IMG/VR virus record: IMGVR_UViG_3300025097_002655 | Coordinates: 1-45,113 of that record | DNA length: 45,113 nucleotides | Direction: 5' to 3' (one strand) | Origin: a virus | Shown here: positions 9,001-45,087 of the stretch, piece by piece | How positions within the stretch are numbered: the stretch's first letter is position 1 | How the letters are laid out: every line of letters begins with the position of its first letter | Translations under genes and position numbers: made by a program | The notes under the pieces: model-generated | Told to the model about the DNA's origin: nothing | Database searches by the model: none | What the model saw: the letters and a program-made list of their open reading frames with translations, nothing else

Positions 9001-12000
9001 GATGCATATTCGTAAGGTCTACATTCGGCAGCCCAACTGATGCTAAATAGGCATTATAGCCCGCGGTTATTGTTGTGCTTAGCGCAGTAAAGGGCGTCAT
9101 CTGCTCGCCGTTAAATGATTGTCCGCCAATTGTAGCCCGGAAACTAACTCGCTTCTTTTCATCGGGGACAGGTGAATCAACAATATCTGGCTGCTCTTCA
9201 AAGGAGTCAAAGGTTACTCCTGTTATTTTATACTTCTTGTTCTTTGCCTGATTTGCCCCCGAGCTATAATCTCCAGAAAAGCTCATTCCGAAGCTAACTG
9301 TTCTTTTTGAATCAACCTCTCTCTGGAGCGCTTTCTGGATAGATTGGCGGCTATAAATTAGTGTACCGGGGCCGGACAAGACATTGCTATATCGTTCAGC
9401 GCTTAGTTGCCACCAAGTTGCGTTATGCGACTGTAAATTATTGACAGGGGCATGATTATACCGCCAACTATAATTTGGAACTCTTGGGTTTATTCCGCCG
9501 CCAAGTCCTGCTCCGCCTGGGGATCTCGGGATTGGGCTAGGAATAACTCGATTTGGTATTGGAGGCGGGTCAATTGGTCTAATACCGCCCGGAGTGTCTC
9601 TTGGGGCGGGCGGAACGACAGGAGGATAAACAACTGCATCGTGAGGGTCGCCCTCTAGTCCTAAGTCTACAGGCGCGCCGCCAGCGTTACCGGCGGGGCC
9701 TAGAATTCCTTCTCCAAAATTTGACCGGTCTTTTAAGAGCGGGAAACCATACTGAATCTTGGGTCGTTCTAATACGTGACTCTCGACAACATTCCGAACA
9801 TTTGGAGCATAGCGAGCAGAACCCGGAAGAAGCTGCTGAATCATCTCCGACATGGCGTCGTCGAGCCATTTATAATACTTTACATATTTGTCAATATCTA
9901 TAGTGTTATTATTTACTTTCCGGAAAAATATTTCCCGCATCTTCTCCATGCGTTTATAATTGAGTCGGAATTTATTAACTGGTTCGCCGATAAGATTATT
10001 GAATTCATCGATTGAGGCGAAAAGGTGCAACATCCGGTTGGAAATGCTCCGATATAGGCTGCGCTCAACTGCAAAATAGAAGTTCTCTGGGCGGATATTC
10101 ACCCCGAAGGCTTCGTCGTCTGATGATAATACCCGAATCATGTCCTCGCTGCTAATATATTCTGGGCCCTGGAGTTTGTTTGTGTAAACGTACTCTTTCC
10201 GAACCGGAGTAGAACTAGCCTTAAAGAAGTCGCCGCGCCCGGTGTGTTGACGTAAGTTTATAGAACTTAACATCGTTCCTTGATAGTCTGAATCATATTC
10301 TCCGGCGATTGACCCAGAAGAAAAATCAACAACACTAAACTGTCCGCTAGCATTGCTGCCAGTAATATTTGTAAAGTCCCAATCTAAAGCAAGTGTCTGA
10401 ATTTGTGGAATATAAGCGTTCGGAGCGTTTGTCTGGAAAGAATAAGCATTACGGGAAGGATTAGTTCGACCATAAGAGTCTGCTTCCAGGGCCTGGTTAA
10501 CCAGGCTCCCAGTTGGTAAATAATCTGTCCAGTAACGAACGCTTGAAATTTTAGAATCTGCGTAAGTTAAAAGGCTGCCGGTATAGTTTGTACGATGTGC
10601 GCCGGCATAAATTCTCTTTGAAGACTCTATAATTGACTGCCCAGTGGCGTAAGCTATTCCTTCTTCTGTACTAAATTCTGTCTTCGCAACACCGTTATCA
10701 CAGTTAACACCATGTAATTGCAGAGTATATCCATCAGTAGCTACGGATGCTCCTAGAACCCCATCATTAAATGGCCACTTCTTTGGGCGCAAAGATAAAG
10801 TAAAGTTCCATCGCTGATTATCGTATACGTTGTTGAATATACTACTTGTTAATAGTGTTGTGCCGGCTCGATCCTTTACAAGAAAGAATGCATCCATAAC
10901 TCTGCCGGCAGGTTCATAAACGGCTGGGTATTCTCCCGGACTCTTAACTGCATAAACTTGGAGTCCATAATCATTTGGTGCAGATGCCCAGGTTAAATCA
11001 ACTGAAGAAGCAGTCGAATCAAGAGGTGTATGGAAACCAAACAGAGACGAAGAAATGACAGTGGGAAGACGATGAGAAAGAAGTTGATAGTTTTGTTTAT
11101 TTGGGAAAACTACTTCTGATTGTAAGGAGAAGACAAAGTCTTGCAGATCCGTTGATCCGCTAATCACGCCTACAGAATTAGAATTAGTCGAATCATAATA
11201 CTGATATACTGTAGCAGAGGCTGCATCAACATCTTGAAGTGCAGAGAAATCTACATACTTCTTTTCACTTGAATCTGTCTTATACGACGAAGCTAATTTA
11301 AAGTCTGAATTGTTTGAATATGTGTTTAGGGAAATTATTTCTTCACCAACACCTAAGCATCGAATAAAGTTTCTTATTGACTTTTCATTACCCTTGGACT
11401 TAAGAATGAAATTAATATTATTATAGATGTTTTTGTATATTGAATTTTTTATATCCTTTAAATTCTGATCAAAAACTATCTGTTCATCTCTCTTCAGGAA
11501 CTGTTGAAGCGTTCCAATATTTGCAAAGATTTCTGGGGTCTCAATACCCATGCTCTCGACAAGCCTATCATTAAACGGAAACTCATTCATAGAAGCAGAC
11601 AAACTGCCGCTATTATAGTTCATGTGTTTAATGTTCTTTAGGGCGGTAATCTGATTATAAATTGTGTCGAAGTAGCTTGCAATAATCTGAGTAAGGCTGA
11701 GTATTTCATTTGCACCGTCCTCTTCCTCTTCAATAATCCAAGCCGGAAGATGGTTGAGCAAGCGGGCCGAGTTTAAGCCGTCGTAGTAGCTTCCTGTGTT
11801 AACATAGGTGGTGTAGGTCGTCTGGTAAAGAGAATTTGAAGTTCTGATAATTGGGCTGGCAATTTCCTCAATATTTTTAATAGACAAATCATTTATTGCC
11901 GAACCGGTGTTGCGGCTATATGTCTCATCATATCCTAAATAATGACCATTTGAAAGTCGTCCTGAATAGTCTAATAAAACCCTATCAACACTAGCTGTTT

Positions 12001-16444: not shown

Positions 16445-16849
16445 CTAACTAGTCATAGTGGAAGTAATCTTTAGCTCATCTCTTGCATTGGCCGGCAAAA
16501 TATCATAAGTTATGGCTACTGTGATCTGGTTTGTGGCTAATGTTGCATCTTCATCACTAGTGATAAAATCAATAGAAACTAAATTTATGGCAGGGATATA
16601 CGTCCCAGTTTGTTCTTTTATCCGAGAAACAATATCAGCCATTATATCACCGTCGATGTTCTCAAACAGAAATCGTCGGAGCCCAACGCCAAACTCTGGC
16701 TCCATTATTCTCTCGCCAGGACTAGTGAGGATTAGATTTTTAAAATTTTGCTTAAGGGTCTGCCCAATCGTCTTATTAAGTCGATAAGGCCCGTCTACAT
16801 AATCGTACACCAATGGTACTTGTGGGGATATACCCTGTCTTTTACTCAT
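16445..16849 (-). CDS. gp25-like: Baseplate wedge protein, gp25/GPW family (134 aa)
   Basis: A 134-residue protein, close to T4 gp25 (132). It has the family pattern LKQNFKNLILTSPGERIMEP followed by EFGVGLRRFLFEN, and a C-terminal beta part ending with ITVAITYDI. Gp25 is part of the conserved core bundle of contractile baseplates and sheath initiation, shared with type VI secretion TssE. The old name lysozyme-like refers to an early activity report; no lysozyme catalytic signature is seen. The start overlaps the upstream stop by one base (TAATG), which suggests coupled translation with the 2038-residue gene. Confidence 0.93.
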   Translation of the reverse strand: MSKRQGISPQVPLVYDYVDGPYRLNKTIGQTLKQNFKNLILTSPGERIMEPEFGVGLRRFLFENIDGDIMADIVSRIKEQTGTYIPAINLVSIDFITSDEDATLATNQITVAITYDILPANARDELKITSTMTS

Positions 16850-19800
16850 TACTCGATAATTAGTTTCTCTAGAGAGTTTCTCTCAGTCCGAATATTTTCT
16901 ATAGCCGCTGCTCGGCGTGAAATGTCAGTATATAAAGCAGACATTGCGCGTAGTATCTGTGTTTCATTTCGCATTATAAATGGGGTAATATTATTTGGAT
17001 CATTTCGTTCACCCGTCCAGTTAGGAAGTCCGCCGCCGCCAAGTCCGCTGCGAGATGATCGCTTGCTCTCCCAAAGGGCAGAATAGAACCTTCCGAATTC
17101 TTCAAAATATTGTTTAGGAGTAAATAGCCCAGGGGAGATCTCTTTATTAATGTTGAGATAACCCGAGGATTCTGCTAAAATCAGCAAGTTTGGGTCGTCC
17201 CTTTGACTACGGTCAAAGTCTCCCAAGATGTGTTTATATACATCATTATAATATGTCATTGATGGATTGCCCCAAGGGGTTCGTCCGCTATTACGCTCGC
17301 CGGCTATTACATTATACCAGGCCCTTTCTGCTAGTTCTTTTGCGTCTTCATCATTTAGGTCGGTAAGTCCTGGGAGATTTCCATGCGACAGTCCATCTAT
17401 TATAACGTTATTCTCTCTCATCCACAATTCCACATAAGGAACTATCCTTTCTTGGAACTCCAAGAATGACATGTTGACTAATTGATCAACACTATAATTG
17501 ATAGCACCGAATTGTCCGCCGAAGCTAGCTATAGTGGCTTTGCTCTTCAAGAGTTCTAAGCGGCGGCGAACTTCTATAGAATTATAATAAGTTATCTCAG
17601 ATTCTCCTGTGTATTCTTTTACTGTCTGCGGAAAATTCCTAAATGGCTCTGAGAATTGGCGTGTTGTCACACCCCTGTATGCTGTCAATAGCGCGTCGTC
17701 GGCTCCAGCGGCCTCTAGTTGAAGTCTGTAGTTGGTTTGTGAATATCTGCCGGCTGAATTGATGGAATAATCATAATAGATAATTTGTGCGGCAGTTAAG
17801 ACTCCTAGTGGGAAATAATAATGTCCAACTGATTTTATACCATCTGGACTGTTTATAATTCTGTCAATTAAACTAACTGTAGTAGGAATTTCTTCTGGAT
17901 CTATCCCATACGTTGCTTGGTTGTTTTCAAGGTTTTCTTTCATTTCCCTAAAGAACATGTCCAAAGCTATACCATATCTGGTCAAATTTTCATTATCTTT
18001 TCCGTGTTTTGTAACATATTCTGTAGAATAATAAGAATAAGTATTTGTATTTGCCCATTCATATTCAGAATATTTAGAGATGTTATTTAACATTCCGACA
18101 TATATTGCCTCAACTAACTCGTAAAAATTATCTTTTGGAAGACTATCTCGCGAGAATGAGAAATTATTATCTGGCTCATCTGCAAAGACTTTTTCTACAA
18201 TATGTAAATTCTGATATACGAGCCCCATTAATGCACGATCTGTTAATTCTTGAGTTATGCTTCTAGAAAGATAATCACATACAATCTTTTTAGTTGAGAT
18301 AGTATTCCAGCCTGTATAAATTCTAACTATAGGCATTGCGTTTAAGAAAAGTTTTTGTACCCTTGTTTGAACAGTTTTTACAATCGCCGTAGCCTTCTTA
18401 ATATCATCATGAGTCACACATCGATCATCTAGCACCTTTAAGGGGTCTCTGTTGATTGCTCCAATGTATTGGGGTAACCTTCTTTTTCCTATATCTGTGT
18501 AGTATGTTTGGTCGAGAGCCTTTTCCGGGGACATTTTCCAATTAGCAAAAGCAGCCCATGGAGCAGCATCATTTTCTCGGTACCCGTCGCCGAGTCCCAA
18601 GAAAAATGTATTCAAAAGCTCCTGAACTTGGACATTATTGATGGATGGCATCTTGCCGGATCCAATAAAAATAGGTGTATAAGTATCGTTGTTAGTCCAG
18701 CCGGCGTAGGCATGTCCGTAAACTAGAGGTGAGTTATCTCCAGTAAGCGGCTGCCCACTGTCTAAATTTGATTCCACATCGCCGTCGAGCCATAATCGAC
18801 CCAATGTACCGATTTCTGGTGCCCACGAGGCTAATTTTTCATACTCTGGAGTATCTACCCCTACATTAATCCCATAAAAGTCATAGCCACCTCGGAGAAG
18901 ATTTCTCGCTGATACAAAGATAGGAGAAACGAAGCCCGTATAAGGCTGGTTTTTCCATGCAGTATTTGATATCTTTTCTAGAATATCCGACCCATATTCA
19001 AGTTGCTGGGAGTCTGTTCTGGGGTAATGCCCGGAATTAAATCCCGGCCAAAGTGCTTGGCGGTAGGCCCATGGGGCTGTACGTGAGGCATATTCTGCCT
19101 CGTCGTAAAATTGTTGATAGTTGTGTGGCTCTACATATGGTAACGGTAAGCGGCGGTTCGATAGGCGCGCATTAAATACATAAGAGTTATTCGGATTAAG
19201 ATATTCTATAACTACATCACCCGGCGTGTCCATGGACAGGAAAGGTACACCAAGATTTTGAAGATTGCCATTGTCATTAGATCCCTGAGGGCCTCCAAGT
19301 ACATAAAATGTCTGTCCAAAACCTGGCTGATAAAAAGCATCCCTCTCTACTGGGGGTGATGTGGTTGAGTCCAGCGTAATTACTTCAAAAGTATTAAAAG
19401 ATTTTAAATTATCCCTTATTTGAAAAAATAATTCTGCGCCCATGCGAGTACTATAAAAATTGTCAACCTTGGCAAGTGCTCGTGGTGGCGCTTCATCGAA
19501 CCACTTAGCAAATAAGGAAGTTATAAAGTCTACAAAAGAATTACTACTATCAGCTAGAAGTTGTAAAATGGCATCATACCAGTCCATTATTGGAATCCAG
19601 TTGAGCATCTCGTTGATATACTCTTCTATCTGATTAAGGCTTTGTAAAAATTCACATAAAGTATTGATTTTATTGATTCGAGAATCAATTACTTGGACAT
19701 ATTGTGTTTGTAATTGTTCCATACTAACTCTTAACTTAAGAGGCGAAAGATCTGGCTCTTTTCCGCTACAATAAGCTTCCAGCGGCGACTGAAAACTCAT

Positions 19801-22800
19801 ATCGTCAACGCCACTCATGTCGTCAGGCATCATAGCGTTGCCGACGTTCTGGAAGAATGTTCTAATAATATCCTTTGTTTTAGTCAAGCTCTTGTAAACC
19901 ACTGGTCTCACAATATAATAAGTTGGCTCCATATCACCATTGACGTCAGGCTTCTCGCCTGTCTTAATTTTTACTTCTCCGTTGGTGACAGTTTCGTAAA
20001 TTAATTCATAAAGAAGATTATCAGCCTCACCAAAAAGCAGTTGCTGTAGTTCAGCGGGAGTACACATCATTGAAATGTCCCTCAAGAACGACTTCATTTG
20101 CTGTGGAGTTGGTGGGATCGCCTCCGTGAGTCCTTGTGCGCCTTGTTCTAATATGCTTTGTTTTTCCGCAATCTGCTGAGTCAGTCTATCGACAAAGTCA
20201 TATGATTGTTGGGGCACATTCTGGTCTCTGTCTAGAGTCTCCTCAATATCGTCTAAAGCCTCTTCTCTTCGTCTGGTAAGATTATTAATTTCTTCCCTTA
20301 AATTTACTGGGAGCATGTTTTCTGGAAGAGTTACCAGTCCTGAGTCTACTGCTATTTGCCGAAGATTGAGTCCTTCTGTGTGTTCAGACAATAGGCTATA
20401 GCCATAGTCATGTCGTTTCAACAAATTATCTAATTGTTGATCTTGTGAGGGGTTTGGCCCGCAGCCCAAGGAGGCTCGTAATAAATCCCTGGCGATGCCG
20501 GCTAATAGAGACTTTAACATTTGCTGTATCATGGTCTCTATGACCTTGCCATAAACCTCTGACATATCTCCCTTGGCAGAAATAGTTGGAACCTTTTTTA
20601 GTTTTACCTTCAAAGGAAGGTCATTTACCCCGGATCTTACCAGGCTATTTATTTCTGGGGGAGCACCAATTGGATTTAATATGCCATCCTGAATAACGTC
20701 TCCGAACACATCAAGGGCGCAGGTAATCTGAGAGTTTATAAGATTCTCTATTTCTTTGCGAATAAAAGCCTGGTTTCCGTTCTGTTCGTTTGACCACAGT
20801 CCTGCTGTCTGCTCGGCCCAGCCTTCGCCGGGTTGCTTGCTTGGGTCGAGGTCTAGACTCCTATTTAAACGTTCGGCTCCGTCCAACACATCATGGTTAG
20901 ACATCCCTAAGATAAAGGCATCATTCTTTATCTCTCTCTTCATTAATATTATAGTTTCTCTAATTAGTGCCCGAACATTTTGCTTTTCGTTTAAAGCATT
21001 CCAGAAGCCAACTACATCATTAGCAAGTTGAGCTTGTGCAGTATCACAGTTTGCACCCTTTACGAGTTCTGTAACTCGGGTGCGTACCCAGTTCTTATCG
21101 GTAACTTTACGTTGATATAATAATTCAGCCTGATGGGGAGGCACACTGGCTATTTTTGAGATTCTCTCAAAGAGAAGCTTTTTCCTTTTATTTAAAAGGG
21201 AGTTCTCTTCATTTACAATTTTTATTGTTTCAGGGTCAATGTCTATTTGTGGGTATGTATATTTCGGCAGGAAAGTTGTCCACTGTTCTCCGTTCGCCAT
21301 TCCCGTACTATCTTGTCCAGAAGAAGAATATTCTCGATGAATCGTTCTTGCATGGCGAAGATATGAAAAAGTGGTGGAAGTCATAAACCCAAATGCATTT
21401 AATATGGTTCCGAACTGGCGATCCTCACCGAGCTTTACAAAATCTGTGTTCCCAAGCCCTCTTGTCAGCAGTTCTCCATCTGCACAAATATATAAAAGTT
21501 TATATTTTGAGTTAAAGAAAAATTCTAAAACGGTATCTTCTGTTATCGTTCTTTTGTTATATGAAAGAAAGGTACTCAATACATCTGGAATCGCCCCTAT
21601 CCGAGCGATCTCATCGTCTAAATAGAACATTCCGGATCTATCTGAGGGTTCCGGAGTTCTATCTTCGGGGGATCCAAAAGGCAAAGAATAAACTCCCTCT
21701 TCGGACATGCTGGTAACATAACCCTCCAATAGGATCCTAGTAGACCTAAGGTATTGTAGTAGATCATCGAAAACATATGTTTCATGATGGGCAATGACAG
21801 TTTTCTCGGGGTCCATCAATACCTCGGCCTTTTGAAGGACTGTCAATTCCTCTTCTTCATATGACATATTATCTACGCCACCAAGATTGTCAATAACCTC
21901 TCTGTCAATTTGAACTGAGAATGTCCAGCGGGAAGTTGGGCGAATATCTAAGTTAGAAAGGAAATATGCTTTCTTCGGGCGGGAATTTAATATGACATTC
22001 TGATTAGCTGCGCTGAATTTTCCAACTGATAATAGAATCTCTTTAACGCCGGCAGAAAGAGCAGACTCTATATTTCCTTTAACTGTTTGAAAGCTAGTAC
22101 TCTCTTCATCTTCATAAAAAGAAAGGTCATAATAATCTGGTGAAGTGTGTCTTGTTCTTTTGGTGTAGTAGAACTTTTGATCCCTAGCGCTATAATATGT
22201 CTTAGATGTTTCTGTGCCTGGATTACAATTGTTTGTCCAGTCGTCTAAATCTACATTTGCGTCTGTCGAGATATACCCTGTAATCTCAGGGGCCAAGATT
22301 GTACTAGCCATAGATATAGAAGAGTATGTTGCTAGCGGCGGCGTGTCTTCTTTTCCGATAGCCTTTCTTAGCTGCGCAATATATTCTGCTGAGTGGTGAG
22401 GGTCTATGTGTATGAGCTTATATCGTCCCTCGGGTTTATCGGGGTCAAAAGAGAGGGGTGCCGAGTTAGTGACATAGTTTATGCGTGCGTCACTAATTCT
22501 ATATATTTTATTAAGCTGCTCATTTGCTTCTTCTTCTGATAATACAGTAATAGATAAAGTGCCATCGTCGCTTGAAACAACTTTTCCATTCTGTGGGTGT
22601 AAGGCGCAATATGCGTAAAGATCATCGTCTGTTATTATTTGTACCCAGAGGTCGATGTTTGGAGGCTGGAATGGGAGCCTGAAAAGCCTGTTCTGGTCTT
22701 CTTCCTGCTCTTGCTCTTGTTGCTCTCTTGGTAGAGGATTTTCGGGCTCGATCCTTTCCCCTATATGATTTGGGAACAGGCGCATCCCAGCAGCGGGAAA

Positions 22801-22965
22801 CTCGTAATAAGATATATAAGATTCATGAATAGCATTTAAGACAAACTTATTTCTCCACTGATCATATGCATACCCTACTCCATTCCGTGTAGGATCATTC
22901 TCAGGATCCGAATATGTTCGGGCGGATGGATTAACAATGTTTTTTTGTGCTTGCGTGAGTGCCAT
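16849..22965 (-). CDS. Very large orphan structural protein between spike-region genes and gp25 (2038 aa)
   Basis: Complete frame of 2038 residues with an AGGAAGAAG ribosome-binding site directly ahead of the ATG. I recognise no family. Visible features are a Gln/Glu-rich low-complexity stretch near residues 78-90 (REQQEQEQEEDQN); a long helical part at about 600-1100 with heptad-like runs (NLTRRREEALDDIEETLDRD); many aromatic and Asn-rich beta-type segments; and helical segments at the C-terminus (AMSALYTDISRRAAAIENI). No signal peptide or membrane segment is evident. Its place upstream of and coupled to the gp25-like gene, and after the M23 peptidase, suggests a central hub, tape-measure-like or wedge-scaffold function. 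A classical tape measure would be more uniformly helical, so I do not call it one. Confidence 0.8.
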   Translation of the reverse strand: MALTQAQKNIVNPSARTYSDPENDPTRNGVGYAYDQWRNKFVLNAIHESYISYYEFPAAGMRLFPNHIGERIEPENPLPREQQEQEQEEDQNRLFRLPFQPPNIDLWVQIITDDDLYAYCALHPQNGKVVSSDDGTLSITVLSEEEANEQLNKIYRISDARINYVTNSAPLSFDPDKPEGRYKLIHIDPHHSAEYIAQLRKAIGKEDTPPLATYSSISMASTILAPEITGYISTDANVDLDDWTNNCNPGTETSKTYYSARDQKFYYTKRTRHTSPDYYDLSFYEDEESTSFQTVKGNIESALSAGVKEILLSVGKFSAANQNVILNSRPKKAYFLSNLDIRPTSRWTFSVQIDREVIDNLGGVDNMSYEEEELTVLQKAEVLMDPEKTVIAHHETYVFDDLLQYLRSTRILLEGYVTSMSEEGVYSLPFGSPEDRTPEPSDRSGMFYLDDEIARIGAIPDVLSTFLSYNKRTITEDTVLEFFFNSKYKLLYICADGELLTRGLGNTDFVKLGEDRQFGTILNAFGFMTSTTFSYLRHARTIHREYSSSGQDSTGMANGEQWTTFLPKYTYPQIDIDPETIKIVNEENSLLNKRKKLLFERISKIASVPPHQAELLYQRKVTDKNWVRTRVTELVKGANCDTAQAQLANDVVGFWNALNEKQNVRALIRETIILMKREIKNDAFILGMSNHDVLDGAERLNRSLDLDPSKQPGEGWAEQTAGLWSNEQNGNQAFIRKEIENLINSQITCALDVFGDVIQDGILNPIGAPPEINSLVRSGVNDLPLKVKLKKVPTISAKGDMSEVYGKVIETMIQQMLKSLLAGIARDLLRASLGCGPNPSQDQQLDNLLKRHDYGYSLLSEHTEGLNLRQIAVDSGLVTLPENMLPVNLREEINNLTRRREEALDDIEETLDRDQNVPQQSYDFVDRLTQQIAEKQSILEQGAQGLTEAIPPTPQQMKSFLRDISMMCTPAELQQLLFGEADNLLYELIYETVTNGEVKIKTGEKPDVNGDMEPTYYIVRPVVYKSLTKTKDIIRTFFQNVGNAMMPDDMSGVDDMSFQSPLEAYCSGKEPDLSPLKLRVSMEQLQTQYVQVIDSRINKINTLCEFLQSLNQIEEYINEMLNWIPIMDWYDAILQLLADSSNSFVDFITSLFAKWFDEAPPRALAKVDNFYSTRMGAELFFQIRDNLKSFNTFEVITLDSTTSPPVERDAFYQPGFGQTFYVLGGPQGSNDNGNLQNLGVPFLSMDTPGDVVIEYLNPNNSYVFNARLSNRRLPLPYVEPHNYQQFYDEAEYASRTAPWAYRQALWPGFNSGHYPRTDSQQLEYGSDILEKISNTAWKNQPYTGFVSPIFVSARNLLRGGYDFYGINVGVDTPEYEKLASWAPEIGTLGRLWLDGDVESNLDSGQPLTGDNSPLVYGHAYAGWTNNDTYTPIFIGSGKMPSINNVQVQELLNTFFLGLGDGYRENDAAPWAAFANWKMSPEKALDQTYYTDIGKRRLPQYIGAINRDPLKVLDDRCVTHDDIKKATAIVKTVQTRVQKLFLNAMPIVRIYTGWNTISTKKIVCDYLSRSITQELTDRALMGLVYQNLHIVEKVFADEPDNNFSFSRDSLPKDNFYELVEAIYVGMLNNISKYSEYEWANTNTYSYYSTEYVTKHGKDNENLTRYGIALDMFFREMKENLENNQATYGIDPEEIPTTVSLIDRIINSPDGIKSVGHYYFPLGVLTAAQIIYYDYSINSAGRYSQTNYRLQLEAAGADDALLTAYRGVTTRQFSEPFRNFPQTVKEYTGESEITYYNSIEVRRRLELLKSKATIASFGGQFGAINYSVDQLVNMSFLEFQERIVPYVELWMRENNVIIDGLSHGNLPGLTDLNDEDAKELAERAWYNVIAGERNSGRTPWGNPSMTYYNDVYKHILGDFDRSQRDDPNLLILAESSGYLNINKEISPGLFTPKQYFEEFGRFYSALWESKRSSRSGLGGGGLPNWTGERNDPNNITPFIMRNETQILRAMSALYTDISRRAAAIENIRTERNSLEKLIIE

Positions 22966-31967: not shown

Positions 31968-32744
31968 CTATAGTCCTTTCGACAGCCATCCGCCGTCAAC
32001 ATAAATATCTTGTCCAGTGATATATTCAGATAGGTTAGAACAAAGGAATACTACCGTGCCAGCAATATCTTCGGGCTTTCCCCACCGACCCAAGGCCGTC
32101 TTATTTTTTCTTTCATTATATATTTTCTCGTTAGACCAGCTTCTTTTTGTCATCTCTGTCTTCATGTAACCTGGCCCTATGTTGTTTGCCCGGATATTAT
32201 ACTTCCCCAAATCAATGGCTAAAGATTTAGTTAATTGTTTCAAACCTCCCTTGCTGGCAACATAAGCAGGGTTGTTGGGGAAAGCTAGTTCAGAATTTAA
32301 ACTTGTAATATTAATAATTGACCCACCATGGTCTTTCATTAGGGGCACAATATTTTTGCATATCTTATAGGGAGCAGTTAAATTTATTTTTAACGTCTTC
32401 TCCCACATGTTATCTGAATATACCTCTGTATTCTGGGGGAATGTCACCCCAGCACAATTTACAATTCCGTCAAGTTGGGAAGTGTGTATATATAGCGATT
32501 CTATTAATTCACCAATCTGCTCATCATTTGTCAGGTCGGCGCATTTCATATAACAATCGTGTTCTTTCTTTTTTAAAGACTCGTATGTTTTCTGCAACTT
32601 GCTTCTATCGCTATCAGTCAGAAATACAATAGCTCCAAATTTAGCTAAATACTCACAGATCACCGAACCTAATCCGCCTGCTGCGCCAGTAACTAGAACT
32701 CTTTTTCCATCTAACAGTCTTAGTTGCATATAATCATTGGACAT
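31968..32744 (-). CDS. Short-chain dehydrogenase/reductase, PtmA-like context (258 aa)
   Basis: Classical SDR: dinucleotide-binding KRVLVTGAAGGLGSVICEYL, the NAG motif IVNCAGVTF, the catalytic Ser-Tyr-Lys pattern with NITSLNSE and YVASKGGLKQLT, and C-terminal DIYVDGGWLSKG. Full length. These enzymes oxidise or reduce sugar hydroxyl or keto groups with NAD(P). In Campylobacter the SDR PtmA stands beside the CMP-sugar transferase PtmB and NeuB-type synthases in the legionaminic acid locus, so the present order (SDR next to the cytidylyltransferase) suggests a similar role. Overlaps the upstream SDR by 11 bp. Confidence 0.88.
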   Translation of the reverse strand: MSNDYMQLRLLDGKRVLVTGAAGGLGSVICEYLAKFGAIVFLTDSDRSKLQKTYESLKKKEHDCYMKCADLTNDEQIGELIESLYIHTSQLDGIVNCAGVTFPQNTEVYSDNMWEKTLKINLTAPYKICKNIVPLMKDHGGSIINITSLNSELAFPNNPAYVASKGGLKQLTKSLAIDLGKYNIRANNIGPGYMKTEMTKRSWSNEKIYNERKNKTALGRWGKPEDIAGTVVFLCSNLSEYITGQDIYVDGGWLSKGL

Positions 32745-33431: not shown

Positions 33432-34271
33432 CTATTCCCAGTACCTTAATTTATTGGCAATTGGAATCTCATCGTCGAGTAAAGATTTTTTTCCGTTCCC
33501 GAGAATTTTCTGAACTTGTCTAATAGTGGAAACCAACTCTTTTAATTCTTTTGGATTCAAAGAAGCTGACTGATCCGATCCATACATTTCCTTATCTAAG
33601 GTTATGTGCCTCTCAATAACTGGTGCTCCTAATGCCGCGGCCACAAGGGTAGGTAGTCCGCCAGATTCATGTCCACTATATCCGACACCACAGCCATACT
33701 TTTCCTCTAAAGATTTTATAGTCAAAAGATTACTATCTTCTTCTTTTGTCGGGTAAGTTGACACACAATGCAGAAGAGTAAAGGGGCAGTCATTATTTTT
33801 AAATATTTCTACCGCAGCATCGACATGTTCCATTGTTGATAGTCCTGTGGAAATATAAGTATGTTTCCTGCACTTAGCTACTTCATTAAGAAACTCTGCA
33901 TGAGTTAACATAGCAGAAGCGACTTTATGAAACGGGACATTGTAATTATTAATAAAATATAGGCTTTCAATATCCCAAGCAGAGGATGTCCACTTGATCC
34001 CCAATTCTCTACAGTGCTCATCAATTATGTCATATTCTTCCTTCCCGAACTCTAATCCCTCTTTTTGTTGTCTCTGGGTGGTTCCCCAGGGGCTCTCTCG
34101 GGGACAGTCAAGGACATCCTCGGAATAAACGGTATTGATAGTTCTTTTTTGAAACTTTACTGCGTCACAGCCGGAACTATGGGCGATATCAATAAGCTTT
34201 TTTGCTATTTTTATATCTCCGTTGTGGTTGATCCCCACTTCTGCAATAATAAAAGCATTAGTATCTGACAT
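33432..34271 (-). CDS. neuB-like: NeuB-family nonulosonic acid synthase, copy 2, no SAF domain (279 aa)
   Basis: NAFIIAEVGINHNGDIKIAK, CDAVKFQKR, TSSAWDIESLYF, TYISTGLSTMEHVD, LHCVSTYPTK, YSGHESGGLPTLVAAALGAP and ERHITLDKEM follow the NeuB barrel from end to end. It is clearly paralogous to copy 1 but diverged throughout. Like copy 1 it stops near 280 residues and lacks the C-terminal SAF domain found in cellular enzymes. It heads the nonulosonate gene block, with an AAGGA site eight bases ahead of the ATG and an 88-bp upstream gap, so it could be the first gene of a transcription unit. Specificity unknown. Confidence 0.9.
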   Translation of the reverse strand: MSDTNAFIIAEVGINHNGDIKIAKKLIDIAHSSGCDAVKFQKRTINTVYSEDVLDCPRESPWGTTQRQQKEGLEFGKEEYDIIDEHCRELGIKWTSSAWDIESLYFINNYNVPFHKVASAMLTHAEFLNEVAKCRKHTYISTGLSTMEHVDAAVEIFKNNDCPFTLLHCVSTYPTKEEDSNLLTIKSLEEKYGCGVGYSGHESGGLPTLVAAALGAPVIERHITLDKEMYGSDQSASLNPKELKELVSTIRQVQKILGNGKKSLLDDEIPIANKLRYWE

Positions 34272-36625: not shown

Positions 36626-37480
36626 TTAGTCCAGAGAAAATTCGTTATACGCCACATCAGACTCCGAGTGGTTTATCCAGTTGTTAATTAAGATGTTTCT
36701 CATGTAGGGGTGGAAGTGAGGCTCTTCGCTTCCAAGGTAATGTTTAGTTACCTTTTTCAGAGATGGTATAACTTCCACATAATTAGCCAAGCACGAATCT
36801 ACACACATAATAGCTTGGGCATTTTCTAACACCATCGTCCAGTCATATATTTCGTAACCTTTAATATAAGAGAAATTGATTGGATTGGATACTTCCACTT
36901 CTGGGAGTTTTTTTCCATTCTTATACTGGTGTACTATGGAATATTTTTCGGATCCATACTTTTCTTTAGCGTAAGAAGTGATAAAATTATAGAGCTTCTG
37001 TTCTTTTTCTAAGTCGCGGGTCCAGCTATAATTCCACCTCTCTTGCAGAGGAACATTGGCGAGAAAATATTTTAAGTCAATCCAGTTTCTATTTCTTTTT
37101 GAGAAAATCTGGGTCATTTGATTATTTATGTCATTACGATGTCCTGGAAATGTAAAACAAAAATCTAAAACCTCGTATTCTTCTTGGTCGGGTTGCTTGG
37201 TCAACCACGCCGCCAACTTTCGAAAGAATTCAACCCCCGCCATTATAAACACATCTGGGTTATTTGCATCGATGCGTGTATTTGTGTAATAAACATAAGG
37301 ATTCATCGACACCCCCAAGGAGAATGTCTTGATGTCTGGGAACTGTTTAAAATAATCTATATAGTTATCAAATACGGGCCACACTACCTCGTATCCTTGA
37401 TCCGCATAATATTGTGCGATCGGAGTGGTGATAACTATATCCCCCATTTTGCCGGGTTGAAGGATTAATTTTTTCTTCAT
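36626..37480 (-). CDS. GT9-like glycosyltransferase (heptosyltransferase-like) (284 aa)
   Basis: LILQPGKMGDIVITTPIAQY resembles the N-terminal loop of GT9 heptosyltransferases, which bind ADP-heptose, and VLENAQAIMCVDSCLANYVE resembles their C-terminal donor-site segment (usually VGVDTGLMH). The protein is somewhat short (284 versus about 320-350). Together with the split HldE genes immediately downstream, it suggests that the phage both makes and transfers heptose. The match is by motif texture rather than full alignment. Confidence 0.7.
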   Translation of the reverse strand: MKKKLILQPGKMGDIVITTPIAQYYADQGYEVVWPVFDNYIDYFKQFPDIKTFSLGVSMNPYVYYTNTRIDANNPDVFIMAGVEFFRKLAAWLTKQPDQEEYEVLDFCFTFPGHRNDINNQMTQIFSKRNRNWIDLKYFLANVPLQERWNYSWTRDLEKEQKLYNFITSYAKEKYGSEKYSIVHQYKNGKKLPEVEVSNPINFSYIKGYEIYDWTMVLENAQAIMCVDSCLANYVEVIPSLKKVTKHYLGSEEPHFHPYMRNILINNWINHSESDVAYNEFSLD

Positions 37481-38784
37481 CAGAGATTTTGTGTCTTAAA
37501 TAAAGCAAAGTCATCCTCGTCTAACCCCGGTTTCGGAGCTAAATCGGGATGGCTGCCAAGGGAATCCAATATCTCATTTAAGAATTTAGAGTATATTTTT
37601 TCTTCCGAAAACTTATTTCTTATGTGTTCTTGTAATATCTTTGCATCATTTCTATAAGATGTAGGAGATTCTAATAACGATCTCATATTTTTCTTAAAAT
37701 GCTTTTCATCGATATATGCCCATTGTGACCCTTCTATGATAATTCCTTGCATAATTGCACGGGGATCTACCGGCTTTAGCTCAAAACGAGTTTTAAGGAA
37801 TAGGTTTTTTGACCTTACCTTTCCGGATGTCTCGTTTACTACCGGGGCCTTTAAAAAATCCAAATACCCAGACCAAGTTGGTGCTATTACCGGAAGCCCT
37901 GAATATACTGCTTCAAATACCGGGAGTCCAAAACCCTCTCCATGAGTAGTCGTTACATATCCGAATATTCTAGGATCGCTATACAATGAATGAAGCTCGG
38001 CCTCGGTTAGGCGTCCGTGTAATAGATGAATCTTACATTTGCGTTTATCCTTTGGGTCTATCGCTTTAAGCATTTGCCCAATTAGTTGGCTGGTGTTTCG
38101 ACGGTCAATAATTGAGTCTGTTACCATATTTGCCTTTAACACTAGTCCAACTTCTTCTTCCTTAAATTCTTCCACAAAAGATCGGATAAGAGCCTCAACA
38201 TTTTTTCGTGGAGCGAACTGAGCAACAGATAAGAAACATTTCTCTGAGATATTTAAATTTTTAGAGAAATCATCAGGAATATATTCCTTGACTGGGTACC
38301 CTATCACCTTGGGATTATTCTCACAACTAAGGGTTCCAACATGGTTCCCTTGTTTATCCTGTAGTGGGTAAGCGTGCTTAGTGAGGGATGTACTAGCATG
38401 CTCAGATATCGTAATAACCTTATCCATCTCATTACAATTGCGGATCCATTCTGGGTTACACCTATCTGTTTCAACCGCCGCTGTGATGCCTATATTTATT
38501 GGAGCTATTTTCTTCCACTCATTAGGAAGAGCAACCTGGAGGGAAATGTCATATTTACCTTCCTTATACTGTTGTGTCCTCTTGATGCAATTAATGATGA
38601 ATTTGTTTTCGGGTGTGTCCTTGGTGTCTGTAGACGTTGCGCCCCAGGATGTTGGTGCTATATAAATATCAAACTTCTCTATGTTCCTGATAAGAGAACG
38701 CAAAACACACCTGGCATGCTCACCATACCCACTATTCGACAGGATTGGGCCGACTAATAATACTTTTTTAACCTTGTTGCTCAT
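37480..38784 (-). CDS. GT4-family glycosyltransferase, copy 1 (434 aa)
   Basis: GT-B type transferase: KVKKVLLVGPILSNSGYGEH is the acceptor-domain Gly-rich start, and the donor site is seen in FLSVAQFAPRKNVEALIRSF, then HGEGFGLPVFEAVYSGLPVI (the E-x7-E motif). I chose the ATG at 38784, which overlaps the upstream stop as ATGA; an earlier start 6 codons up would add a short leader within the neighbour. The last base of the frame overlaps the GT9-like start. Acceptor unknown. Confidence 0.88.
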   Translation of the reverse strand: MSNKVKKVLLVGPILSNSGYGEHARCVLRSLIRNIEKFDIYIAPTSWGATSTDTKDTPENKFIINCIKRTQQYKEGKYDISLQVALPNEWKKIAPINIGITAAVETDRCNPEWIRNCNEMDKVITISEHASTSLTKHAYPLQDKQGNHVGTLSCENNPKVIGYPVKEYIPDDFSKNLNISEKCFLSVAQFAPRKNVEALIRSFVEEFKEEEVGLVLKANMVTDSIIDRRNTSQLIGQMLKAIDPKDKRKCKIHLLHGRLTEAELHSLYSDPRIFGYVTTTHGEGFGLPVFEAVYSGLPVIAPTWSGYLDFLKAPVVNETSGKVRSKNLFLKTRFELKPVDPRAIMQGIIIEGSQWAYIDEKHFKKNMRSLLESPTSYRNDAKILQEHIRNKFSEEKIYSKFLNEILDSLGSHPDLAPKPGLDEDDFALFKTQNL

Positions 38785-40055
38785 ACTGTGTTTAACTCCC
38801 AAGATTGATAATTTTTTCTATTCTCCCAAGATCCACAACTTTCATGGAGTTCTAACATTGTTCTAACCCAAGTTTCTTTGAAGTTTTCGAAATTATAATT
38901 CTTCATTACATGTTCCCGACCTTTTTGTCCTAGGGCTGTTCGATCTTCGGGCGTCATGTTGTATATCTTTTCCAAAGCATTGACAAAAGACTCTTCGCTG
39001 ACCCTATCCTCATAAATAAATGGCACGTTTAGAGAACCTATTAGTGACTTAGAAGTTGGCTCAAGTCCGACGCCAAACCACTCTTCTCCGTCTGTTACTT
39101 GCTCCTGTAAGCCACCAGTCATTGACACGATGATTGGAGTTGCACAAGCAAGAGACTCTAGAGTTGCCAATCCAAACCCTTCTGCGTCAGCAATGTTTAC
39201 CGTACAATCTGCCCATCTGTAGAAGTTACACAATTCTTCAGCCGGCATCTTCTGAACAGAAAATACAACCTGTCCTTTGTTTAGTCCCAAATGTTCTAGG
39301 ATATAGTCCAAAGGCTGCCCATGTTCATCTCGGATATCAGTATGCATAATTAAGGTAGCCTTATCATGCCCTACTTTATCCAAGAAGGTTTTCCACCAGA
39401 ACAGTAACGTGCCACTCTGTTTGCGGCGGGCGTTTCGGTTATTCCAAAATACTATAAACTTATCCTCATTCATATGAGGGACAGCATCTCTTATTTCTAC
39501 ACACTTTTTAATTTCTTCCGGCGTTTCGGCTGGGCGAAAAATAGTTGTGTCAACAGCATGAGGAATATACTGCTCTTTAACATCTGGGGAGACTGTCTGG
39601 ACAATATCACTCGTCACCTTCGAAATAGTGGCGATCATATCGTTAGAATCATAGAAAGATTTGTTGTAAACCGGATAAGGCCTATTATCCCATACATGGT
39701 AATAAATCATAGGAACAGCATGTCTGATTTCATGTTCCATTCCCCATAGCCAATGATAGAATCTAGGGTCGGTCATGAAATAAAGTATATCTGGTTCATA
39801 TTGTGCCAAGAGTGCTCTAATTTGCTCTTGTGTACCATAACCATCAACTGGGATGATTTGCCAATCTTCCTCATAGCCCTGGACACGTACAGGAGTATAA
39901 TCTTTATGTTTTACGGCTGCACCTAGAGAAAGGACAGAGAATTTTCCACTATCCAATAATGCTTGTATTATATATTTTGTCTGAGTACCGACACCAGAAG
40001 GCAACAAGGGGTGGTCGCTCAGTGTTAATATTTTTATCTTCTTTTTCTCTGTCAA
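38781..40055 (-). CDS. GT4-family glycosyltransferase, copy 2 (424 aa)
   Basis: A second GT-B protein: KIKILTLSDHPLLPSGVGTQ starts the first domain, IPHAVDTTIFRPAETPEEI joins the domains, and DAEGFGLATLESLACATPII is the E-x7-E donor motif. It starts with TTG at 40055, supported by AGGAGG at 40064-40069 eight bases ahead, one of the strongest Shine-Dalgarno matches in the window. It is diverged from copy 1. It heads the glycan cassette, following the nuclease gene after 12 bp. Donor is probably an activated hexose or the heptose made downstream. Confidence 0.88.
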   Translation of the reverse strand: MTEKKKIKILTLSDHPLLPSGVGTQTKYIIQALLDSGKFSVLSLGAAVKHKDYTPVRVQGYEEDWQIIPVDGYGTQEQIRALLAQYEPDILYFMTDPRFYHWLWGMEHEIRHAVPMIYYHVWDNRPYPVYNKSFYDSNDMIATISKVTSDIVQTVSPDVKEQYIPHAVDTTIFRPAETPEEIKKCVEIRDAVPHMNEDKFIVFWNNRNARRKQSGTLLFWWKTFLDKVGHDKATLIMHTDIRDEHGQPLDYILEHLGLNKGQVVFSVQKMPAEELCNFYRWADCTVNIADAEGFGLATLESLACATPIIVSMTGGLQEQVTDGEEWFGVGLEPTSKSLIGSLNVPFIYEDRVSEESFVNALEKIYNMTPEDRTALGQKGREHVMKNYNFENFKETWVRTMLELHESCGSWENRKNYQSWELNTV

Positions 40056-40922: not shown

Positions 40923-41591
40923 TTAAAAATTTCTCTGATGATGAAGTTCATTAATCTTATCATATAGCATTGGGCTAATTTTTTCTAGGGTGTCGCGCTT
41001 CCCTAAATAGTAAGCTTCAAATCCAGTAGCAAAATACTCCCTTAAAGAGACCGACGCATAAGGTCTTATGAATAATCCCGTCGTGACCATCCGGAGCATT
41101 GACTTCCCGAGACGCTTGTATAGGAACTCATCAAATTTTTCGTCATACCTTAGATTATCGAAATTATAATCCTTCAACCAGTACCCTTCGCTATGAAGTT
41201 CAAATTTTAGGCTAGTCCTTTTTCCAATGAATTCGCGAACAATTGACTTATCTCCATAGATCAAATCTGTGTATACTGCTTCTAAATGATGAGCAAACTC
41301 ATGAACTACATCATCTAGAATGCTTTTAGAATCAGCTTGGTCGTGATTAATATAGAATATTCCATCGTCGTAAAGGGCAGTGAAATTCTTGTCCCGAAGG
41401 TCAATAAAATTGCCAATTTTAACACTTTTCAAGCCTGTGAAATAGTGTGATGGAAAATGATTCTCGACAGCCTTAAATACTGCATCTAGGCTAACGTTCT
41501 CTGGTGGAGGTTCCAACTCTTCAACCTCAATGCTTCCAAATTTAAAATATCGAGTAGTATTTTCTACTTTTTCAGTAATATAAGTTATCAC
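40923..41591 (-). CDS. HExxH zinc metallopeptidase-like protein (222 aa)
   Basis: VVHEFAHHLEAVYTDLIYGD holds the HExxH zinc site, and SLREYFATGFEAYYLGKRD about 85 residues later supplies a Glu-containing helix as a probable third ligand, as in gluzincin-type enzymes (lethal-factor-like group). No signal peptide, so a cytoplasmic or virion-borne protease is implied. Start GTG overlaps the PhoH stop (GTGA). Target unknown. It lies between PIN-PhoH and the nuclease, not in the glycan block. Confidence 0.75.
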   Translation of the reverse strand: MITYITEKVENTTRYFKFGSIEVEELEPPPENVSLDAVFKAVENHFPSHYFTGLKSVKIGNFIDLRDKNFTALYDDGIFYINHDQADSKSILDDVVHEFAHHLEAVYTDLIYGDKSIVREFIGKRTSLKFELHSEGYWLKDYNFDNLRYDEKFDEFLYKRLGKSMLRMVTTGLFIRPYASVSLREYFATGFEAYYLGKRDTLEKISPMLYDKINELHHQRNF

Positions 41592-42895
41592 AGGATTTCA
41601 GCCGCTAAAGTTGCCAATTTTGATCTCTCTCCCTTGTATAGCGTCACATGCCCAGAAATGCTATATTCCTTAAATTTCTCTACAGCGTGAGTCAACCCAT
41701 TCGAGACAGCATCAACATATGAATTATCAATCTGTTGAATATCGCCTGTCAGGACTAATTTAGTACCATGCCCCACTCTAGTTATTATAGTCTTTAATTC
41801 GTGAGTTGTTAAGTTTTGTGCCTCGTCAACTATCATAAAGGCGTTTGAGATCGACCTGCCTCGAATATATGTCATGGCCTCAATCTCTACAATTCCTTGT
41901 TCCATGTGCATCTGAAGTGCCGTCTTGTCCCCAAAAAGATATTCTAAATTATCACGTATAGGAGCTATCCAGGGCAACATCTTCTCCTCTAGAGTGCCGG
42001 GCAAAAACCCAATATCTCGACCCATGGGCTGTACTGGCCTTGTGATTATCAATTTATCGTACCCGCCGTTAGCTTTTGTATTATGTAAGACCTGTTCTAG
42101 TCCGCAAGCTGCTGCTATAAGTGTTTTACCAGTTCCTGCCTGTCCTGTCAAGGATATTATCTGAATGTCTTTGTCAAAAAGGAGATCCATGGCGTATTTC
42201 TGTTCTTTGTTTTTCGCCGAAAGTCCCCAGATGTCTCGATAAGTATAAATCTTTTGCAGAGGTGTTTCGTAGTTTTTGAATCGACAAAGCGCTGTCTTCT
42301 TTGGATCTTTCTCTGATTTAAGCACCAAATAGTGATTTGGGAACAATTTTGATTTCTGGTCTGGCAGAAAGACTTCTATATCGTTGTAGAAATTCTCCAC
42401 CAACTCATCAGGTACAACAATCTCCGAAGAGCCGTCATATAGGTTTTCTACAGATTTTACTGCTTGTTGAGGCTGATAATCATAGCACTCTATCCCGAAC
42501 GAGTCACATTTAACTCGCATATTAAGATCACGAGAGATCACGGCGATATCGTGGCCCTCTATTCTCAGTCGAAGAGCAACAGCAATTATTTTGTTATCGG
42601 AGTCTTCTTGATCCATGCCGGCGGGCATATATCTTGGATCATATTGTGCGGCAAAGACTTTACCTTTTCCGCTGCCAAGTGGAACGCCATGTAATAAACT
42701 TCCTTTTGAGCGAAGCTTATCTAACACTCGATTCATTGTCCTGGCATTTAAGCCTGCTGTATCTTGTCGGTGTTTGTGCCGGTCAATCTCATCTAGTACA
42801 ATAGTTGGAACTGCAACGTTACTTCTGCCAAAAGAAAAAAGAGACTGTGCGTCTGTTAAATAAACATTAGTATCAAGTATAAGAGTTTTTGTCAA
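41588..42895 (-). CDS. phoH: PIN domain-PhoH ATPase (435 aa)
   Basis: N-terminal PIN ribonuclease-like domain (about residues 1-130): TLILDTNVYLTD, VLDEIDRHK, DNKIIAVALRL and VISRDLNMRVK provide four acidic positions of the active site. C-terminal PhoH ATPase: Walker A SLTGQAGTGKTLIAAACGLE, Walker B NAFMIVDEAQNLTT and the TGDIQQID motif. The architecture matches PhoH2/YlaK-type proteins, RNA helicases with linked RNase in characterised cases. I chose TTG 42895, preceded by GGTGGT; a TTG at 42940 would place the start in the U-tract of the tmRNA terminator. The acid residues look intact, so nuclease activity is expected. Confidence 0.92.
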   Translation of the reverse strand: MTKTLILDTNVYLTDAQSLFSFGRSNVAVPTIVLDEIDRHKHRQDTAGLNARTMNRVLDKLRSKGSLLHGVPLGSGKGKVFAAQYDPRYMPAGMDQEDSDNKIIAVALRLRIEGHDIAVISRDLNMRVKCDSFGIECYDYQPQQAVKSVENLYDGSSEIVVPDELVENFYNDIEVFLPDQKSKLFPNHYLVLKSEKDPKKTALCRFKNYETPLQKIYTYRDIWGLSAKNKEQKYAMDLLFDKDIQIISLTGQAGTGKTLIAAACGLEQVLHNTKANGGYDKLIITRPVQPMGRDIGFLPGTLEEKMLPWIAPIRDNLEYLFGDKTALQMHMEQGIVEIEAMTYIRGRSISNAFMIVDEAQNLTTHELKTIITRVGHGTKLVLTGDIQQIDNSYVDAVSNGLTHAVEKFKEYSISGHVTLYKGERSKLATLAAEIL

Positions 42896-42938
42896 TTTAC
42901 CACCAATCTTAAAGGCATATAATAAATAGATTCCCCAC

Positions 42939-42964
42939 AAAAAAAAAGCCGCCCGAGGGCGGCT
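42939..42964 (-). terminator. Strong intrinsic terminator behind tmRNA
   Basis: Minus strand AGCCGCCC, a 2-nt turn, GGGCGGCT and nine T residues: a perfect 8-bp GC-rich stem with a U-tract. It begins at the last base of the encoded CCA, so it both ends the tmRNA transcript and sits ahead of PIN-PhoH, whose expression would need read-through or another promoter. Confidence 0.92.
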
Positions 42965-43287
42965 GGTGGAGGTAGGGAGAATCGAACTCCCGTCTTGTCC
43001 AGTTTCACAGAAAGGTCATTCACAAGGTTAGGCCTGTTTTTTTCGTCGGACAGCCCGCTTGACTAGATCATCTTATTGTGGCTGAGATAATCAAAAGCCT
43101 TAAGGTTCTCAAATACGGCTTTCTGTTTATCGGCTGCCGTCGCCTCAAGAGAGGTCAGGTTTTTAAGCTGCCATCTCCATGTTAAAATCGTCGTTTGCGA
43201 TTAAAAGTTTAAGCGTTTTTAGTGAGCCACGCTTCCCTCACCCTTGCACCTTTTCTACTTCCCCGTCAATCGATACCGGTTACCCCC
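42964..43287 (-). ncRNA. ssrA: Transfer-messenger RNA (ssrA), complete, 324 nt
   Basis: The acceptor arm GGGGGTA at the 5' end pairs with TACCTCC ahead of an encoded ACCA tail, with G3-U as the third pair, the known alanine identity signal. The T arm is GGGAG-TTCGATT-CTCCC. Pseudoknot 1 is complete: GTGAG pairs with CTCAC while AAGCGT in its loop pairs with ACGCTT (43211-43241). The resume region TCGCAAACGACG equals the enterobacterial form. The tag frame ends with TAA, and the later region has ACGGC/GCCGU stem and other pseudoknot-like pairings. One-piece type, shorter than E. coli (363 nt). tmRNA with SmpB releases stalled ribosomes and tags nascent proteins for ClpXP. SmpB is not encoded in this window. 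Confidence 0.96.
43163..43198 (-). other. tmRNA tag reading frame (proteolysis tag)
   Basis: Eleven codons followed by TAA from the GCA resume codon: ANDDFNMEMAA, so the full tag would be A-ANDDFNMEMAA with the alanine carried by tmRNA. It keeps the AND start and the AA end used by ClpX/ClpA/SspB-type recognition but has Met in place of the usual Leu before AA and an extra residue compared with the E. coli ANDENYALAA. Confidence 0.93.
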
Positions 43288-44274: not shown

Positions 44275-45087
44275 TTACTTCCGCCTTTGTCGTTTTGCCC
44301 GCTTAACTTTAGGTTTTTTTACTTTACCGGGAGTATAGGGGTTATAGGTATTGGGTGGACCGAAGCCAGAACCACCGCCAGAAACGGCTCCGGATCCCAT
44401 CGCCGAGATCTCGTCTATCATAAAGTCTACGTGCTCGTTATATGATTCGTTTGGATGAAAAATATTCCATATTTCATCTGAATCGATAACTTTTGGTACA
44501 AAAGTATTGAAAAGGACAGCGTCATTCATGGCTATAGCTTCTCTAGCATCTTCACCATTGTAAGGGGTTCCATCTGGACGGCTCACTGGGTCTTCTTCTA
44601 TTAGTTCGACACTTACTCCGGGATTATTTCTTTCAGCATAAGATTGAGCGCCCTCAAAGCGCGTGTCTCCAAAATCTTTACTACTCTTAATAAGCATGAT
44701 AGTATCTCCAGAGCGAGCCTTGACGGGATCAGCTACATATTCGTAGACTGAAGTAATTGGACTACGGTAGTCTGCGATTTCGACTTGAATATTATCGGGA
44801 GCGTCAGGAGAATCTAAAAACTTATTCCAAATACTTAGAGATTGCTGAGGATTAACCTCAGGTTTGGAAGAGGGTGAAATTAATATGACCAACTCATCTA
44901 CATCTTTTCTTTTGGCTACTTTTTTTGCAAATTCATAATGTCCTCGGTGAGGTGGTTTAAACTTGCCTGGGAAGAGGGCTATTCTTTTCCCGCTTTGGTC
45001 GCCAGAATTAGTTAACCCTGGAGTATAGGCCGCTTCTTTGACCAATGTTTCCCCAAGTCCTTGGTCTTGTGATATTTGTTGGGTCAT
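44275..45087 (-). CDS. Nucleotidyltransferase-fold protein, NadM/NMNAT-like, start possibly outside the window
   Basis: KRIALFPGKFKPPHRGHYEF carries the HxGH motif; LVILISPSSK and the Thr/Gly-rich PYNGEDAREAI segment fit the adenylyl/cytidylyltransferase fold of NMN adenylyltransferases. The C-terminal about 50 residues are a Gly-rich linker with a strongly basic end (KVKKPKVKRAKRQRRK), not part of the enzyme. I see a usable ATG at 45087, but the frame stays open to the window edge without a stop, so the true start may lie upstream and the gene may be partial. NAD salvage enzymes of this kind occur in phages; a structural-fold role is the alternative. Confidence 0.75.
   Translation of the reverse strand: MTQQISQDQGLGETLVKEAAYTPGLTNSGDQSGKRIALFPGKFKPPHRGHYEFAKKVAKRKDVDELVILISPSSKPEVNPQQSLSIWNKFLDSPDAPDNIQVEIADYRSPITSVYEYVADPVKARSGDTIMLIKSSKDFGDTRFEGAQSYAERNNPGVSVELIEEDPVSRPDGTPYNGEDAREAIAMNDAVLFNTFVPKVIDSDEIWNIFHPNESYNEHVDFMIDEISAMGSGAVSGGGSGFGPPNTYNPYTPGKVKKPKVKRAKRQRRK

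Follow-up and report, generated by a model that had tools for sequence, protein, structure and literature searches.

Genes for tmRNA, the RNA that rescues stalled ribosomes and marks the incomplete protein for degradation, have been reported in 402 of 18,146 phage genomes (PMC9004378) and, together with SmpB, in huge phages (PMC7162821), so that a phage tmRNA is not new in kind. The initial annotation of the DNA described here held that a small number of large phages carry such genes; that phages carry them stands, although in view of these surveys their supposed rarity does not. Mycobacteriophages including Bxz1 and Wildcat, Bacillus phage G (PMC4131195) and Bradyrhizobium elkanii phages (PMC12656738) have a complete ssrA in the genome, as is the case here; what sets the present gene apart from all of these is a fixed position before phoH and a modular tag. 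The OM43 phage Melnitz (PMC9004378) offers another likeness, being a marine T4-like phage without an integrase in which ssrA lies at an early promoter, but its tmRNA is two-piece, of alphaproteobacterial type and found in 17 of 47 related contigs, whereas the one considered here is one-piece and occurs in 28 of 28. One-piece tmRNAs from marine sources are few (2.5%; PMC9004378). In the huge-phage sets the tmRNA forms part of a takeover of translation and is accompanied by SmpB (PMC7162821), unlike in the present clade; the distant relative LR756508 has a tmRNA too. With bacterial one-piece ssrA (RF00023) the gene shares its fold, pseudoknot 1 (PK1), resume codon, tag frame, alanine G-U pair and CCA, and it differs in being encoded by a phage and in specifying a tag of the form ANDDFxxxxAA, with the endings MAA or QAA instead of the common LAA. 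The part that looks new is the tag, which is modular and swapped between phages; no description of strict phoH linkage with exchange of a tag cassette was found in the limited literature searched. Why phages carry tmRNA is a standing question, and the choice of tag by a virus becomes testable here.

The tmRNA gene and its transcription unit

The window (the whole stretch of DNA analysed, a virus record of 45,113 bases) is a fragment of the genome of an uncultivated T4-like phage. It contains gp25 and a baseplate wedge gene (T4-type gp25/gp6 baseplate), and T4-like terminase, gp20 portal, sheath and gp21 prohead protease are present in relatives (G027, G024 and others); across the window and its relatives, these genes place the phage among the T4-like Caudoviricetes, and they bear out the proposal that the tmRNA is phage-encoded. 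A DnaB-type helicase, ribonucleotide reductase and a GroEL-type chaperonin are also found in relatives, the longest of which is 190.5 kb. The relatives are metagenome contigs gathered by means of the neighbouring phoH (77 loci, 28 of them close); the sibling contig G001 matches the window over 9.4 kb at 98.6% identity. The features of the locus are as follows.

42964..43287, minus strand: one-piece tmRNA (ssrA) gene, 324 nt, 3' CCA encoded (ARAGORN; Rfam RF00023)
43281..43287, minus strand: acceptor 5' strand GGGGGUA, pairing with UACCUCC at the 3' side; includes the G3-U70 alanine identity pair
43211..43241, minus strand: PK1, GUGAG/CUCAC and AAGCG/CGCUU, paired in 22 relatives
43166..43198, minus strand: tag frame ANDDFNMEMAA; translation resumes at GCA (43198-43196) and stops at TAA (43165-43163)
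43143..43183, minus strand: exchangeable cassette made up of ~6 final tag codons with their stop, the loop and the P5 3' strand, recognized by a drop in between-class identity and by the mosaic L126
43299..43327, minus strand: sigma70-type promoter TTGACA-17-TATAGT, 11/12 matches, upstream of the tmRNA
42939..42964, minus strand: intrinsic terminator GCCGCC-CUCG-GGCGGC plus T tract, immediately 3' of CCA; stem 42964-42947
41588..42895, minus strand: phoH, PIN_4 and PhoH domains, PhoH2 type (Pfam PF13638, PF02562; NCBIfam NF053827)

A complete one-piece tmRNA had been proposed from the letters of the sequence, with no strand given. ARAGORN and Rfam cmscan confirm it, agreeing exactly on 42964-43287 of the minus strand, and the RF00023 match is complete (model positions 1-374; score 89.7 bits, with the cut-off at 47; E=1.2e-33). 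The CCA, alanine G-U pair, T arm, PK1 and tag frame ANDDFNMEMAA that had been described are all found. The G3-U70 pair is G-U in 22 of 22 relatives, in which the T arm is 100% paired and the two stems of PK1 are kept in 98.2% and 100% of cells; the covariation test for PK1 is weak because its stem sequence is nearly invariant. Over 71 hand-written pairs, PK1 included, 95.1% of cells pair among 22 distinct sequences and 23 pairs change on both sides (10.2 +/- 1.8 in shuffles), it being understood that the structure behind these counts was derived from the same 22 sequences. Sliding one side of the helices cuts pairing to 35-48%. Compensatory changes back the first stems of P5, PK2, PK3 and PK4; in PK2-PK4 these are the stems that were resolved. 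The structural support exceeds chance. It should be noted that the tmRNAs of several relatives were missed by ARAGORN and found by the covariance model.

The tmRNA is kept directly upstream of phoH in all 28 close relatives, of which 26 have a full tmRNA above the Rfam cut-off and the other two begin inside the gene at a contig end. tmRNAs are common too in more distant relatives, whose PhoH is ~50% identical, and there, in the loci covered, they usually lie on the same strand as phoH, 1-6 kb upstream, and encode different tags, for example ANNNNHFESVRLAA and ANDNVEFEYAVAA. A comparable tag frame resuming at alanine is present in the tmRNAs of relatives. The tmRNA is a maintained phage gene and not a scrap of an attachment site.

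It is also its own transcription unit. The promoter and terminator that had been noticed at the outset are both present in the window and conserved in relatives, although the surrounding intergenic sequence diverges: the promoter is found at 10 or more of 12 matches in 26 of 27 full tmRNA copies, with a spacer that is always 17 nt, and in L017 and L024 the terminator stem has changed on both sides in a compensatory manner. A promoter of this type, read by the host sigma70, suggests early expression; the earlier proposal that the tmRNA could serve late, mRNA-degrading infection is not supported as far as timing is concerned. The part of that proposal concerning mRNA cleavage is plausible, as judged from sequence, because a PIN-PhoH gene always follows the tmRNA; the PhoH2 arrangement couples an RNase to an RNA helicase (PMC7824862). 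The start of phoH is likely to be the TTG at 42895 rather than 42940, homologues beginning at residue ~16. Between the terminator and this likely start (42895-42940) an AT-rich motif (CTATTTATTATA and similar) is kept across relatives, and its sequence is possibly that of a phage promoter for phoH. The protein encoded after phoH (40923-41591) weakly resembles zinc-metallopeptidase models of Pfam, with scores under the cut-off.

The exchangeable tag cassette

Three main tag endings are seen in the close relatives, namely NMEMAA (the EMAA class), QLAQAA (AQAA) and LALAA (ALAA). In the EMAA and AQAA classes the N-terminal ANDDF hardly varies, and all alleles retain the terminal Ala-Ala. In their distribution the classes follow neither phoH nor the remainder of the tmRNA. 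By parsimony they need 13 changes on the phoH tree (from a quick search, with SH-aLRT as its sole measure of support), the well supported branches of which alone force at least 5-6 switches per class, and 12 changes on a quick tree built from the tmRNA after removal of the tag region, in which few branches are well supported. What is exchanged is a segment of ~40 nt comprising ~6 terminal tag codons and the P5 strand that pairs with them. The last six codons are 0.938 identical within a class and 0.612 between classes, a comparison that is partly circular because the classes were defined on those codons, as was not the case for the P5 strand and flanks: the non-coding P5 strand gives 0.891 against 0.693, the tRNA-like end 0.926 against 0.922 and P2/PK1 0.955 against 0.948. 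Since members of a class share their codons, the tag alleles are probably inherited copies and not convergent peptides. The most direct case is that of L126 and L140, whose PhoH shares ~50% identity with the main-clade protein. Their backbone before the resume codon is 84% identical to L224/L225 and 58% to L012, whereas in the cassette they match L012 at 93% and L224 at 61%; on these sequence comparisons the tmRNA is best explained as a mosaic that arose by recombination.

The tag does not appear to be bacterial, as far as tested by sequence searching. The pattern ANDDFxxxxAA followed by TAA matched 39 virus stretches, whereas a search of 84,980 species of bacteria and archaea for this pattern, which is distinct from the ALAA form ANNNAELALAA, yielded no tmRNA bearing it. 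Three genome matches to the pattern, considered as a bacterial source of the tag, were rejected, as ARAGORN detects no tmRNA in them.

What the exchange means for the phage can be read in two ways. In the first, which falls a little short of even odds, ribosome rescue alone is selected and the tag is nearly neutral, varying by recombination between conserved flanks and by the need to pair in P5. The last tag codons are indeed base-paired in P5, where their changes are matched on the facing strand (columns 117/138 and 118/137), every allele keeps Ala-Ala, and the resume frame of one related tmRNA, at L221, reads simply Ala-Ala-stop. ClpX is known to recognize the two terminal alanines together with the carboxylate, and in E. 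coli a change at the antepenultimate residue (Leu9) raises the Km only modestly (PMC7652416); EMAA and AQAA tags are thus probably still degradable, perhaps more slowly. Nevertheless, a few exact peptides, with the same codons, recur across divergent phages where drift would be expected, and the near fixation of ANDDF within two classes also sits poorly with neutrality.

Alternatively, the cassette may be under diversifying or host-matching selection, the phage tag, compared with that of the host, making the degradation of a tagged protein (of phage or host) faster, slower or dependent on a different protease. We regard this as possible, though clearly below an even chance. The repeated switches on the phoH tree, the movement of the cassette between backbones ~50% diverged, the swapping of the tag endings as a unit and the carriage by these phages of a putative ClpP and, in two of them, FtsH are all consistent with it. 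Exchange by itself is, however, no proof of selection, and the universal Ala-Ala and modest Km effect mentioned above tell against the steering of rescued proteins to different proteases that the initial annotation put forward as a possibility.

Whichever applies, a single clade that always keeps its tmRNA yet exchanges the tag alone separates ribosome rescue from protein marking. It supplies natural C-terminal degrons missing from the bacterial tmRNAs surveyed, and natural variants of the tag, for example AANDDFNMEMAA, AANDDFQLAQAA and AANDDFQLALAA, allow a direct test of its role in infection. The L221 locus (L221:2320-2400; IMGVR_UViG_3300009129_001478), where the resume frame is just GCA GCT TAA, apparently derives from a partial duplication of the tag end, and would be either a natural, nearly tagless tmRNA or a fault of assembly or sequencing.

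Proposed function and partner proteins

The gene and its structure, promoter, terminator and conservation, the exchange of the cassette, the absence of SmpB and the presence of a putative ClpP in relatives are matters of sequence. The reading that we prefer, with a probability of about 0.8, is that they describe a functional, phage-owned tmRNA, expressed as a separate unit. The host RNA polymerase would transcribe it early, given the type of promoter; host AlaRS would charge it with alanine; and host SmpB would load it onto stalled ribosomes, which would be released for use by the phage with the addition of a short tag ending in Ala-Ala. SmpB was found in none of 42 phage records by a search that matched 10 of 14 genomes as a control, and it is for this reason that the host protein would be used. 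Further steps are more speculative. Some of the stalling might result from cleavage of mRNA, perhaps by the neighbouring PIN-PhoH protein; tagged proteins might pass to Clp protease, including the phage ClpP; and the cassette might be chosen to fit the proteolysis system of the host. The fullest version of these ideas, that a T4-like lineage has its own branch of trans-translation, in which a ~40-nt tag cassette is swapped so as to meet the right protease or escape the wrong one in each host, possibly together with phage ClpP, is tentative and on balance unlikely.

The putative clpP gene lies outside the window. Its product is encoded in 11 of 11 close-clade records that extend upstream from the tmRNA by 43 kb or more, as well as in the sibling contig G001, and its catalytic Ser, His and Asp positions are intact in the relatives (PF00574) when aligned to solved ClpPs; the NCBIfam scores are far under the equivalog cut-offs. 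In the four records that cover its region, the gp21 prohead protease is a gene separate from ClpP, which makes it unlikely that ClpP is the head protease. A ClpX gene was looked for in the phage records and not found. Two long tmRNA-bearing records, the fragments G040 and G046, lack ClpP, and the Microcystis phage Mel-JY01 encodes ClpP but carries no tmRNA. A functional link between tmRNA and ClpP was sought through their co-occurrence and not established: an independent-pairs test had two pairs and gave no significance, and the association is confounded by descent.

FtsH was found in two of the 12 close-clade records searched, G001 and G080, and the idea that all of these phages have it was rejected (loci G001:2037-3236 and L204:886-2751). 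The protein is full-length in both (TIGR01241, above the equivalog cut-off; 678 bits in G001), and that of G001 is ~43-52% identical to the best phage and plasmid records among the matches listed, which gives no pointer to a host.

Against a functional tmRNA it could be argued that the RNA is a decoy that inhibits host tmRNA by competition, an effect proposed for mycobacteriophage DS6A, the tmRNA of which consists of the TLD only, TLD fragments being said to inhibit tmRNA (PMC4131195); this is very improbable, because the mRNA-like domain, the tag frame and the pseudoknots are conserved and covary here, and none of them would be required of a decoy. Many temperate phages integrate at ssrA (PMC9004378, PMC12656738), and the gene might be supposed to have been left behind when a prophage excised imprecisely from such a site in a host; this reading is already contradicted, and has next to no likelihood, in that the gene is complete, with its own promoter and terminator, compensatory changes and a place in 28 of 28 T4-like relatives, and blastn against 399 Pseudomonadota genomes gave just two 29-nt matches in the T arm. 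Against 50,697 phage records the blastn matches of the window tmRNA did not exceed 42 nt; most lay in the T arm, as did the best, or were attributable to chance.

Other genes in the window and relatives

Between 31968 and 45087 the window has phage genes of sugar or surface-polysaccharide type, as listed here.

31968-32744: FabG-like reductase
33432-34271: NeuB-family synthase
37480-40055: two glycosyltransferases
44275-45087: cytidylyltransferase-like protein

Two very large open reading frames lie in the tail/baseplate region, at 3029-13114 (3361 aa) and 16849-22965 (2038 aa). In the 190-kb relative (G027), genes for DUF2201 (metallopeptidase/VWA), DUF444 and SpoVR are clustered at L155:8177-18349.
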